Of a stretch of DNA of 64,000 nt, positions 56,172 to 60,492 are shown piece by piece. This DNA comes from Kutzneria chonburiensis (GTDB taxonomy: Bacteria > Actinomycetota > Actinomycetes > Mycobacteriales > Pseudonocardiaceae). The notes below the pieces were generated by a model. It had not been told where the DNA came from. It worked only from the letters and a program-made list of their open reading frames with translations, and ran no database searches. The position numbers and the translations under genes were made by a program. Positions within the stretch are counted from its first letter, which is position 1. Each line of letters starts with the position of its first letter. The DNA lies in assembly GCF_028622115.1 (NCBI RefSeq), contig NZ_CP097263.1, positions 7,316,001 through 7,380,000 of the forward strand, given 5' to 3'.

Positions 56172-58976
56172 TCACGCCACGATGTTGACCAGACGGCCCG
56201 GCACCACGATGACCTTGCGCGGCTCCTTGCCGCCCAGCAGCTCGGCCACCTTGGCGTCGGCCAGCGCCAGCGCCTTGACCTGCTCCTGGCCGGCGTCGGC
56301 GGCCACCGTCACGCGGGCCTTGACCTTGCCGTTGACCTGGATCGGGTACTCGACGGTGTCGGCGACCAGGTAGCGCTCCTCGGCGACCGGGAACGGACCG
56401 TGGGCCAGCGACTCATCGTGGCCCAGCCGCTGCCACAGCTCCTCGGCGATGTGCGGGCACAGCGGCGCCAGCATCAGCACCAGCGACTCGGCCACCGACC
56501 GCGGCGTGGAGCCGGCCTTGGTCAGGAAGTTGTTCAGCTCGATCAGCTTCGCGCCGGCCGTGTTGTAGCGCATCTCCGCGTAGTCCTCGCGGACGCCGGC
56601 GATGGCCTTGTGCAGCGCCCGCAGCGTGTCCTCGTCCGGCTCGACGTCGGTGACCCGCAGCTGCCCGGTCTCCTCGTCGACCAGGTTGCGCCACAGCCGC
56701 TGCAGGAAACGCTGCGCGCCGACGACGTCCTTGGTCGCCCACGGCCGCGAGACCTCCATCGGCCCCATGGACATCTCGTACAGCCGGAAGGTGTCGGCCC
56801 CGTAGGTGTCGCACATCTCGTCCGGGGTGACGACGTTCTTCAGGCTCTTGCCCATCTTGCCGTACTCGCGGTTGACCTCTTCGTCGTTCCAGAAGTACTT
56901 GCCGTCCCGCTCGACGACCTCGTCGGCCGGCACGTACACGCCGCGCGCGTCGGTGTAGGCGTAGGCCTGGATGTAGCCCTGGTTGAACAGGCGGCGGTAC
57001 GGCTCGTCCGAGCTGACCTCGCCCAGGTCGAACAGGACCTTCTGCCAGAACCGGGAGTACAGCAGGTGCAGCACGGCGTGCTCGACGCCGCCGATGTACA
57101 GGTCGACGCCGCCCGGGTCGGTGGAGCCGTGGATCTCCGGGCGCGGGCCCAGCCAGTACTTCTCGTTGACCGCGTCGACGAAGCGCTCGCTGTTGTCCGG
57201 GTCCACGTACCGCAGCTGGTACCAGCAGGAACCGGCCCAGTTGGGCATGGTGTTGGCGTCGCGGCGGTACATCTTGGGCCCGTCGCCCAGGTCCAGCTCG
57301 ACGTTGATCCAGTCGGTGGCCCGGGACAGCGGCGGCGACGGCTCGGTGTCGGGGTCGTCCGGGTCGAAGGTCCGCGGCGAGTAGTCGTCCACCTCGGGCA
57401 GCTCGACCGGCAGCTGGTCGACGGGGATGTCATGGGCGACACCGTGCTCGTCGTAGACGATCGGGAACGGCTCGCCCCAGTAGCGCTGCCGGGAGAACAG
57501 CCAGTCGCGCAGCTTGTACTGCACGGTGCCCTCGCCGGCGCCCTGCTCGGTCAGCCACTCGATGATCGTCTTCTTGGCCTCGACGACGTCCATGCCGTCC
57601 AGGAACCCGGAATTGACGGCCGGCCCGTCGCCGGTGAAAGCCTTGCCCTCGAAGCCTTCCGTCGGCTGCACGGTGCGGATGATCGGCAGCCCGAACACCT
57701 CGGCGAAGTCCCAGTCGCGGGTGTCCTGGCCGGGCACGGCCATGATCGCGCCGGTGCCGTAGCCCATCAGCACGTAGTCGGCCACGAACACCGGGACCTT
57801 GGCCCCGTTGACAGGGTTGACCGCGTACGAGCCGGTGAAGACGCCGGTCTTGTCCTTGTTCTCCTGACGGTCCAGATCGGACTTCCGGGACGCCGCCAGC
57901 CGGTACGCCGCAACGGCTTCCGCCGGCGTCGCCGCGTCAGCGGTCCAGCGACCGTCCACATCGGACGGCCACTCGGCGGTGGTCAGCGAGTCGACCAGCG
58001 GGTGCTCGGGAGCCAGCACCAGATAGGTGGCGCCGAACAGGGTGTCGGGCCGGGTGGTGAAGACCTCGATCGACTCCGAGCCGGCGGCGAAACGCACCCT
58101 GGCGCCGTAGGAACGGCCGATCCAGTTGCGCTGCATGGACTTGACCTTCTCCGGCCAGTCCAGCCGCTCCAGGTCGTCGACCAGCCGGTCGGCGTAGGCG
58201 GTGATGCGCATCATCCACTGGCGCAGGTTGCGCCGAAACACCGGGAAGTTGCCGCGCTCGCTGCGGCCGTCCGCGGTGACCTCCTCATTGGACAGCACGG
58301 TGCCCAGGCCCGGGCACCAGTTCACCGGCGCCTCGGACAGGTAGGCCAGCCGCCGCGAGTCGATCTTCGCCCGGCGCTCGTCGGCCGACAGCGTGGCCCA
58401 GGACGGGTCCTTGGCGTACTCGGCCTCCAGCTCGGCGATCGGCCGGGCCCGACCGGCCGACTCGTCGTACCAGGAGTTGTAGATGCGCAGGAAGATCCAC
58501 TGCGTCCAGCGGTAGTACTCCGGGTCGATGGTCGAGATCCGGCGCCGCTCGTCGTGACCAAGGCCCACCCGGCGGATCTGCCGCAGGTAGGTGGCGATGT
58601 TGTCCTCGGTCGTCTTGCGCGGATGCTGGCCGGTGGCGACGGCGTACTGCTCGGCCGGCAGGCCGAAGGCGTCGAAGCCCATGGTGTGCAGCACGTTGCG
58701 GCCGTTCATCCGGTGGAACCGGGCGAACACGTCGGTGCCGATGAAGCCCAGGGGGTGGCCGACGTGCAGGCCCGCGCCCGACGGGTACGGGAACATGTCC
58801 TGCACGAACATCTTGTCGGCGGGCAGCGGCGCGTCGCTGCTCAGCGGGCCGACCGGGTTGGGCGCGTGGAAGGTTCCGCGCTCGTCCCAGTAGTGCTGCC
58901 AGCGACGCTCGAACTCGCCGGCCAGTTCGGCGGTGTAGCGGTGGGCCGGCGCCGCCTCGGCGGTCTGCTCGGTCAT
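56172..58976 (-). CDS. leuS: Leucyl-tRNA synthetase
   Basis: 934 aa class I synthetase. HIGH motif as HVGH (residues 71-74, in [15 protein letters not shown]), KMSKS as KMGKS (about 706-710), editing domain in the middle ([19 protein letters not shown] and [20 protein letters not shown]). C-terminal domain ends with [15 protein letters not shown] ... [12 protein letters not shown]. Charges tRNA-Leu with leucine in the cytosol. The leader region upstream (59010-59114) looks like a transcription attenuator with a Leu-codon leader peptide. Strongly similar in motif order to M. tuberculosis LeuS (Rv0041). Confidence 0.97.
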
Positions 58977-59009
58977 CGGAAGATCCCTCTCGTCGTACCT
59001 GCCCCTGAC

Positions 59010-59046
59010 AACACAAAACCCTCCAGCCCCATACGGGCATGGAGGG
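59010..59046 (-). terminator. leuS attenuator terminator hairpin
   Basis: On the minus strand, CCCTCCA pairs with TGGAGGG with an inner GCCC/GGGC extension (59019-59046), followed directly by TTTTGTGTTGT. It is an intrinsic terminator placed in the leuS leader, about 35 nt before the SD/start region, and would stop transcription before leuS. Confidence 0.75.
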
Positions 59047-59047
59047 C

Positions 59048-59087
59048 TAGCCGCGCCGACCGCTTCGTCAGGAGGTCAACGCGGCTA
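59048..59087 (-). promoter_or_regulatory. Pause hairpin of the leuS attenuator
   Basis: TAGCCGCG pairs with CGCGGCTA (8 bp), with an inner GACC/GGTC stem. The TAG closing the leader peptide is in the 5' arm, so a ribosome that reaches the stop would melt this hairpin, while one stalled at the Leu codons would not. Its loop-side CCTCC can pair with GGAGG of the terminator, giving a candidate antiterminator. Confidence 0.55.
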
Positions 59088-59114
59088 AATAAGGAGCAGG
59101 CGGACCGTGCTCAT
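59085..59114 (-). CDS. leuS leader peptide MSTVRLLLI
   Basis: A nine-codon frame, ATG to TAG, encodes MSTVRLLLI with three consecutive Leu codons (CTG CTC CTT, 59099-59091) followed by Ile. A -10 box (TAAACT on the minus strand) ends 6 nt upstream, so the peptide should be translated from a leaderless transcript. Followed by a pause hairpin and terminator, as in classical amino-acid attenuators. Confidence 0.7.
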   Translation of the reverse strand: MSTVRLLLI

Positions 59115-59144
59115 GGGCCGAGTTTAGCGCACACTCTTTAGGTC

Positions 59145-60492
59145 ATGCGCTGGGTTTGGATCGGCCTGGTTCTGTCGGTGGCGGCCTGCACCGCGACGCC
59201 CCCGCCACCCTCTTCCCGCCCCCTCCGCGACCACCAATGCCGTGGTCGCGCCGGTGCCGATGGGCGACTGGCAGACGTTCAACCGGACCAATCAGCGCGA
59301 CGGCGCGCAGCCCGATCTCGCGCCCGTGAGCACCCTGTCCCTGGCCTGGCACACCAAGCTGGACGGCGCGGTGTACGGCCAGCCGTTGATCGTCGGCGCG
59401 CTGGTCCTGGCCGCCACCCAGAGCGACACCGTCTACGCGCTGGACGCGGTCACCGGCAAGATCAGATGGCAGACCCACTTAGGCACCCCCATGCCCCGCA
59501 AGGGCCTGCCCTGCGGCGATATCGATCCGGTCGGCATCATCGGCACGATGGCCTACGACCGGTTCACCGGCCGGGTGTTCGCGGTGGCCGAGACCGCGGG
59601 CGGCAGCCATACGCTGGTCGGCCTGGATCTGGACACCGGCACCGTCGAGGTGCGGGCCAACGTGGATGCGCCGAAGGGCGACACCACCGCCTACCTCCAA
59701 GCCGGCGCGCTGACGGTGGCTGACGGCCGGGTCTTCATCCCCTACGGCGGGCTGGCCGGCGACTGCGGCAACTACGTGGGCACGGTCCTGTCGATAAGAA
59801 CCGACGGCACCGACGCCCACAGCTACACGGTGCCGACCCGGCGCAAGGGCGGCTTCGACGGCCCGGCCGGCGGCGTGCAGGACAACTCGCGGCTGCTCTA
59901 CGCGGCCGCCGGCGGTGCGTCGACCGGCGGCGAGTACGACGACAGCGACTCCGTGCTGGCGCTGGCCACCGAGAAGCTGAACCGGATCGACATCTTCACG
60001 CCGCCGACCTGGGGCGAGGACAACGGCCACCATTTTGACCTCGGTGCCACCAGCCCCGCGATGATCGGCTCACACGTGGCCGTGACGGGCATTCGCGGCA
60101 TCACCTACGTGCTGGACCAGTCCGACCTGTCGCACGTGACGTCACAGCTGAACACCTGCCCGTCCCAAGGCGCGCCGGCCGCGCTGGACAACCTGCTGGT
60201 CATCCCATGCGCCAACGGCGGCCCAAAGGCGTTCATCGCCGACAACGCCGGGCAGCTGACCCCGCGCTGGGCCGCCGCGGTCACCGCGACCGGTTCACCG
60301 ACCGTCAGCTTCGACTCGGTCTGGGTCGTCGATCCCGCCGGCGGCATCCTCTACGCCCTGGACATCGGCAAGGGCACGGTGCGGGGCCAGGTGCAGATCG
60401 GCCCCGCACCGGACTACGCCTCGGCGTCGCTGTCCAAGGACCACGCGTACGTGGGCGTGATGGACGGCGTCTCAGCCGTAGCCGGCGCCTAG
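59145..60492 (+). pseudogene. PQQ-repeat lipoprotein, frameshifted near the N-terminus
   Basis: The ATG at 59145 encodes a lipoprotein signal (MRWVWIGLVLSVAACTATP, lipobox LSVAAC) but this frame is lost after about 30 residues. The mature protein, GDWQTFNRTNQRDGAQPDLA onwards, continues in the next frame to 60492. Adding one C to the CCCCC run at 59219-59223 joins them as SSRPPSATTNAVVAPVPMGD. The mature part (about 410 residues) has PQQ-type beta-propeller blades (AWHTKLDGAVYGQPLIVGAL, VYALDAVTGKIRWQ). Would be an anchored extracellular propeller. Frameshift is real or a sequence error. Confidence 0.8.

Follow-up and report, generated by a model that had tools for sequence, protein, structure and literature searches.

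The leucyl-tRNA synthetase gene (leuS) of Kutzneria chonburiensis is very probably controlled by ribosome-mediated transcription attenuation that responds to charged leucyl-tRNA, as judged from a leader comprising a short open reading frame (ORF) with a run of Leu codons, a first hairpin (P1) and a terminator-like hairpin (P2). The leader lies in a stretch of 64,000 nucleotides (contig NZ_CP097263.1, positions 7,316,001 to 7,380,000), which is referred to as the window and whose coordinates are used throughout. Control of this kind is known in actinobacteria; the window element extends the control described for leuS to Kutzneria, and the main value of the analysis lies in a shared two-hairpin design and in the missing antiterminator. 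The same leader-P1-P2 design precedes ilvB, cimA and leuA, which is the addition of this analysis, and it probably precedes ilvA as well. It is tentatively proposed, as a claim somewhat more likely to fail than to hold, that one non-competing design controls leuS, leuA, ilvB, cimA and probably ilvA across actinomycetes, with P1 antiterminating by abutment; if true, the abutment design would place these ribosome-mediated attenuators in a mechanistic class of their own.

Organisation of the leuS leader

The preliminary description of this DNA had listed a -10 box, an ORF at leaderless spacing, a hairpin bearing the stop codon, a terminator and leuS, and the sequence contains each of them on the minus strand as described (Table 1); the peptide MSTVRLLLI with its three Leu codons (CTG-CTC-CTT) is likewise present. 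Six nucleotides separate the last T of TAAACT from the leader ATG at 59114, so the predicted transcription start is the A of this ATG or a neighbouring base, which would give a leaderless RNA. The claim of a terminator with a T-tract held for hairpin P2 and for the presence of a tail, but the tail (UUUUGUGUUGU) has only a moderate U content, and a simple promoter and terminator pattern scan was blank there, reporting neither a consensus terminator nor a sigma-70 promoter at the leuS leader.

The core of P1 (GCCGCGTTGACC...GGTCGGCGCGGC) corresponds to 59085-59050, and the UAG stop codon lies inside its 5' arm. The 145-nt leader as a whole folds at -75.2 kcal/mol, as against -54.9 +/- 4.3 for shuffled sequences (z -4.76; 0/200 as good). 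The leuS ATG (58976) is situated 31 bases 3' of the U-rich tail, and the gene product scores well above the cut-off of TIGR00396 leuS_bact (892.8 bits vs 548.4), with PF13603 also matched; its first four named matches are all from Kutzneria (95, 94, 95 and 85% identity).

Table 1. Parts of the leuS leader and related elements (window positions)
Feature	Position	Strand	Basis
-10 box TAAACT	59121..59126	minus	sequence
Leader peptide ORF MSTVRLLLI* (ATG ... CTG CTC CTT ATT TAG), ATGAGCACGGTCCGCCTGCTCCTTATTTAG	59085..59114	minus	sequence; homologous ORFs in relatives
Putative regulatory run, three Leu codons CTG-CTC-CTT	59091..59099	minus	sequence
Hairpin P1	59048..59087	minus	fold and covariation
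Predicted terminator hairpin P2	59018..59047	minus	fold and covariation; abuts P1 directly
U-rich tail of predicted terminator, UUUUGUGUUGU	59008..59018	minus	sequence
GGGGCAGG, downstream of terminator, complement of CCUGCUCC in Leu run	58998..59005	minus	paired in MFE fold
leuS, leucyl-tRNA synthetase, presumptive regulated gene	56172..58976	minus	TIGR00396, PF13603
Elements upstream of cimA in other genomes: L220, L223, L225, L229, L232, L233, L255, L264, L267, L269, L279, L284, L288, L296			

In the MFE fold, the Leu run (59101-59092) pairs with AGGGGCAGGU at 59006-58997 of the minus strand, and the partner chosen in this nested fold is not the ribosome site beside the leuS ATG. A motif similar to GGGGCAGG/AGGGGCAGGU is located 3' of the terminator in many of 29 aligned leaders, and the Leu run and GGGGCAGG are both nearly invariant across leaders. 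A long-range helix between the two, formable only in read-through RNA, is a possible further element of the leader.

Conservation and distribution

Leader, P1 and P2 were homologous in 29 of the 30 leuS loci of the first set, in which six further genomes fall in Kutzneria; the locus without them was L010. Addition of 149 further leuS loci brought the total to 179, and a leader pattern search covering 177 of them (L150 and L155 had no tblastn anchor) gave 97 matches, which were reduced to 95 leaders (88 distinct) after L091 and L137 were dropped by eye. The Leu content of the leuS leaders is partly by construction, because a Leu-codon pattern was used to find them. CTT is the final codon of the Leu run in 69 out of 73 distinct leuS leaders.

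A covariance model of leader, P1 and P2 was built from 34 leaders, the window's included, and run on 173 of the 179 leuS loci, six duplicate loci being left out. It matched 95 of the 173 (50/56, 3/48 and 42/69 in three sets, two of the 42 being weak at E 2e-4 and 0.0075); since 34 of these matches are model builders and arise by construction, the independent matches amount to 61/139. The 78 loci without a model match include 45 of the 48-locus set, in which the three matches are Micromonospora and 40 of the 45 unmatched loci belong to Mycobacterium or allied genera. In the 56-locus set, the leuS loci without a model match are L010, L035, L037, L047, L048 and L052. As a separate observation, L010 carries a -10-like box just 5' of the leuS start itself, as if leuS were leaderless in this organism.

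At the level of the class, 111 of 148 genomes had a model match at E 0.01, either before leuS or before another gene. Within its own genome, the window element is the sole significant match (E 4e-27, by construction; next 0.1), and its score of 109.1 bits is not independent, as the element helped to build the model.

Start spacing and end of the leader peptide

All of the 88 distinct leaders but L145 and L153 have a TANNNT box whose end lies 6-7 nt ahead of an in-frame ATG or GTG (86/88), a count in which any in-frame start within ten codons was allowed and no -10 filter was applied. A -10-like box is also present in 73/73 parsed leuS leaders, partly by construction, as the leader filter required the box. 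When the sequence upstream of these 73 leaders was shuffled, 2.7% had a TANNNT ending 5-8 nt ahead of the chosen start, under a stricter setting than that of the 86/88 count. The spacing is that expected of a leaderless transcript, and the start of the leader RNA in the window is predicted from it.

Most relatives have a sense codon in place of the early UAG and stop three codons further on (...LLLIQPR*). MSTVRLLLI* is accordingly a shortened version; within the genus it occurs in L001-L004 and is absent from L005, L006 and L009. The majority leader, ending in ...LLLxxPR*, has its last codons and its stop inside the P1 5' arm. A stop follows directly after CCG-CGN in 78 of 79 in-frame leaders without an early TAG before CCG (duplicates kept) and is retained in 3/12 leaders with an early TAG (two of the 12 being duplicates); the window has both stops. 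Four leaders of Pseudonocardia (L059-L062) are shifted in frame relative to P1 (...RLLxEAAxx*), with the P1 sequence kept and the peptide end changed.

Covariation of the hairpins

The check proposed in the preliminary description, namely the alignment of leuS leaders, was run, and the Leu codons are conserved and the stems covary. When the 34 leaders were aligned with MAFFT, pairing held in 94.3% of cells, nine pairs had changed on both sides as against 3.1 expected (0/500 shuffles), and none of 500 shuffles and no slide reached the covariation score. Of the five pairing measures, four beat all 500 shuffles, and the fifth (further pair types) was equalled by 30/500. Among 20 further elements, 17 of which stand before other genes, 18 pairs have changed on both sides (8.3 expected; 0/500), a result that leans towards structure since this alignment was fitted to the model; kinship among the elements inflates both covariation figures.

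These observations bear on two readings in which the peptide has no role. Intergenic regions often contain terminator-like hairpins, and P2 might be a constitutive promoter-proximal terminator preceded by a chance ORF, but conservation across families, covariation and the trade-off between the two stop codons make this scarcely credible. Sensing by a tRNA (as in a T-box) or by a protein, with the ORF incidental, deserves slightly more credit, as synthetase genes in other phyla are often T-box controlled; nevertheless, it is highly improbable, because the end of the ORF is conserved and codon identity is either conserved or matched to the gene. None of the Rfam families, including T-box and Leu_leader, reached the gathering threshold in the window, and extension of the search up to E 10 over 58960-59180 gave two microRNA-type matches only, far below their gathering scores. 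A T-box or other Rfam family was rejected as the identity of the element on the basis of these searches. The claim of Leu-codon attenuation from a leaderless transcript is well supported by comparison, through the Leu run, the stop within P1, the covariation and the -10 spacing, and it gains further from the Ile or Ile/Val/Leu codons that occur where the RNA precedes cimA or ilvB.

The same design before other branched-chain genes

The class-wide search gave at least 150 matches, of which one is the window element, 108 others were fetched (L227, a duplicate of L211, being left out) and 15 more adjoin leuS coordinates. The 108 fetched matches lie before leuS (47), ilvB (40), cimA (14), ilvA (3) and leuA (3), with one unreadable at a contig end. 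Genes were assigned by tblastn to a few references, with these genes only as queries, and every readable stretch matched one of them; L230 was assigned to leuA by eye. The cimA reference (L233) scored above the TIGR00977 cut-off and the ilvB reference (L217) above the NF005860 cut-off, and the ilvA reference (L234) did not reach the cut-off of the model that it matched best.

The codons of the leader follow the gene. Leaders of leuS and leuA contain Leu runs, those of ilvB contain mixtures of Ile, Val and Leu codons, and those of cimA contain at least two adjacent Ile codons in 14/14 cases; in front of the probable ilvA (threonine ammonia-lyase) genes L234, L276 and L278, a leader ending in LMVIT* is followed by the same hairpin pair. 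Because the leader filter favours Ile/Val/Leu-type residues collectively, what is informative is how Leu and Ile differ between genes. Such an exchange of codons on one RNA scaffold is the strongest evidence for the codons as the sensor. The adjacent Ile codons before cimA suggest isoleucine attenuation of citramalate synthase, and this predicted control, in several actinomycete lineages, would bear on the supply of precursors for branched-chain metabolites. Among the literature matches listed (titles and abstract openings, with subscription journals largely outside), none described a cimA or ilvA leader of leader-P1-P2 design.

The genome of the window itself has an ilvB leader (MLRDTGLVLPRRADA) and a cimA leader (upstream of 5936922, L298) that ends in LHTVIIIAQRAG, each followed by a similar hairpin pair as judged by eye. 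Neither was among the eight matches that the leuS-built model returned from this genome up to E 10; thus, the match counts given for genes other than leuS are to be read as minima.

For the genes L249 and L251 (~300 residues each), the highest-scoring models are those of 2-isopropylmalate synthase, though short of the whole-protein cut-off, and their treatment as distant cimA was dropped for this reason. Both carry LLL leaders of the leader-P1-P2 design, unlike the LEU element of actinobacterial leuA.

The shared architecture with product-matched codons would provide a clean genetic test of actinobacterial attenuators, for which the published models differ as far as the accessible portions of the reports show (PMC11857589, PMC4833913). 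A finding that counts against attenuation is that codon changes in the ilvB leader of S. coelicolor had no effect on regulation, according to the accessible part of PMC1262725.

Geometry of P1 and P2 and the proposed mechanism

A total of 124 distinct elements were parsed automatically, with the loss of 11 leuS loci (in which the terminator pattern failed) and six others (no leader passed the filter); removal of five mis-parsed elements (L013, L027, L053, L055 and L230) left 119 for the analyses of folding, base sharing and abutment. The gap from P1 to P2 is 0 nt in 109/124, 1 nt in 12 and more in 3. When both helices were extended outward, they shared no base in 106/119, one in 11 and two in 2, among them the window (59048 and 59047); extension of P1 alone, which is too lenient, gave an overlap of 0 nt in 120/124 and 1 nt in 4. 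With P2 left intact and the stretch before it dinucleotide-shuffled, a gap of 0-1 nt appeared in 41.9% of 2380 folds vs 116/119 observed. Abutment of P1 and P2 is enriched, but chance alone yields it fairly often, and kinship links the elements to one another.

Folding of the 119 elements in different ribosome states gave a mean pairing probability for P2 of 0.970 when the ribosome stood at the first regulatory codon, 0.978 at the last, 0.973 at the stop and 0.973 with the ribosome absent, with values below 0.5 in 2, 2, 1 and 2 elements, respectively. The outer six pairs of P1, in the same order, averaged 0.90, 0.10, 0.00 and 0.93; given the 0.10 at the last codon (inner pairs unscored), only stalling at an earlier codon would free all of P1. 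In 56/73 leuS elements, the distance from the start of the last Leu codon to that of P1 is 8 nt. If the ribosome is assumed to cover about 12 nt beyond its A-site codon, a stall at the first Leu codon (59099) would bring its front edge to 59087 and leave the P1 core from 59085 free, and at the UAG the edge would lie at about 59075 and the P1 5' arm would be covered. P1 thus appears, in these models, to report the position of the ribosome while being hardly linked to P2 by base competition.

Beyond two terminal bases of P2, no competing antiterminator was detected by ribosome-state folding (nested pairing) and outward helix extension of the 119 elements. As P2 is stable in every ribosome state, equilibrium folding predicts no switch, and no textbook antiterminator is visible. 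The layout given in the preliminary description is accurate for the ORF, P1 and P2 but incomplete, as it includes no antiterminator. The folding without a switch counts against attenuation, as do the lack of a leader model match in many lineages and the blank result of the terminator pattern scan.

The mechanism proposed is as follows. RNA polymerase would begin transcription at the leader ATG, and translation would be initiated by a ribosome on the leaderless 5' end. With ample Leu-tRNA, the ribosome would proceed to the stop and cover the P1 5' arm; P1 could then not form, P2 would form and transcription would end. With scarce Leu-tRNA, it would wait at the Leu codons (its front edge ending just before P1 in a stall at the first of them), P1 would form and the polymerase would continue into leuS. 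Since the helices abut and share at most two terminal bases, antitermination is proposed to be steric or at the boundary: P1 may hinder closure of the P2 base at the polymerase exit, without replacing P2. An untranslated leader should, by the same scheme, read through too.

A doubtful though appreciable alternative retains the same sensor and lets P1 oppose P2 by exchanging bases where the two helices meet, or by a pseudoknot or triplex that would be hidden from nested folding. The helices of the window could indeed share 59048 and 59047, the antiterminator in the model of C. glutamicum ilvBNC overlaps the terminator at a boundary trinucleotide (PMC11857589) and RNA triplexes were required to model the trpE attenuator of S. 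venezuelae (PMC4833913), as stated in the accessible portions of both reports. Boundary exchange is opposed by the sharing counts given above, with 106 of 119 elements sharing nothing, and by the P2 probability of about 0.97 in every ribosome state under nested folding.

P1 might also be chiefly a pause hairpin for RNA polymerase that gives the ribosome time to draw level, with antitermination arising from the stalled ribosome or from lost coupling, which is considered unlikely. A UG with its U 10 nt after P1 is found in 58/73 leuS leaders and at 11 nt in 5/73, a spacing near that of the his and trp pause hairpins; before ilvB, on the other hand, it is at 10 in just 5/38 and at 11 in 7/38 even though the abutting design is kept. 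Furthermore, pausing alone leaves read-through upon starvation unexplained.

Comparison with known attenuators

The enterobacterial trp, his and leu attenuators operate by mutually exclusive 2:3 and 3:4 pairings. The window leader resembles this classical three-segment type in its leader ORF with cognate codons and in its terminator, but differs in that an antiterminator excluding the terminator by base sharing was not found with nested folding.

For leuS itself, classical attenuators were predicted in S. avermitilis and S. coelicolor by Seliverstov et al. 2005 (PMC1262725). In the part of that report considered, the likeness comprises a Leu-codon leader peptide, a hairpin and a terminator directly before leuS, whereas an antiterminator hairpin is named there and the taxonomic range is wider here. 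An RNA-seq report on S. lividans TK24 further classes leuL2 (MRAVRLLLSEPR), which precedes leuS, as leaderless, together with the thrS and trpS leaders, and that report, in its accessible portion, also describes a hairpin followed by a terminator with a U stretch (PMC8079986). Both systems have a (V/A)RLLL peptide followed by xxPR* or an earlier stop, on the same strand upstream of leuS, but the window form ends three codons earlier, at UAG; the leuL2 peptide MRAVRLLLSEPR is encoded in eight loci of the present collection (L135, L138, L159, L162, L169, L172, L174 and L175). The unusualness that had been claimed for leaderless attenuation of a synthetase gene is contradicted by these Streptomyces reports, insofar as they were accessible.

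The closest published model, judged from the available part of its report, is C. glutamicum ilvBNC, where a leader peptide is likewise encoded on an almost leaderless transcript and antiterminator and terminator nearly abut; that system, however, is described with hairpins that share a boundary trinucleotide and with a proposed third hairpin, as against 0-2 bases and two hairpins here (PMC11857589). The LEU element of actinobacterial leuA also combines a Leu-codon leader with a Leu run that complements a downstream stretch, but in that element the partner of the Leu run is the Shine-Dalgarno box of leuA, whereas the complement here lies between the terminator and the leuS ribosome site (PMC1262725, in the portion available).

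The divergent neighbouring gene

A divergent gene on the plus strand (window 59145-60492) begins 30 bases from the start of the leuS leader. It has a lipoprotein-like N-terminus in ORF 59145-59723 and a PQQ-type beta-propeller domain (PF13360) in ORF 59242-60492; as these two segments are in different frames, the gene may be frameshifted or may start downstream.
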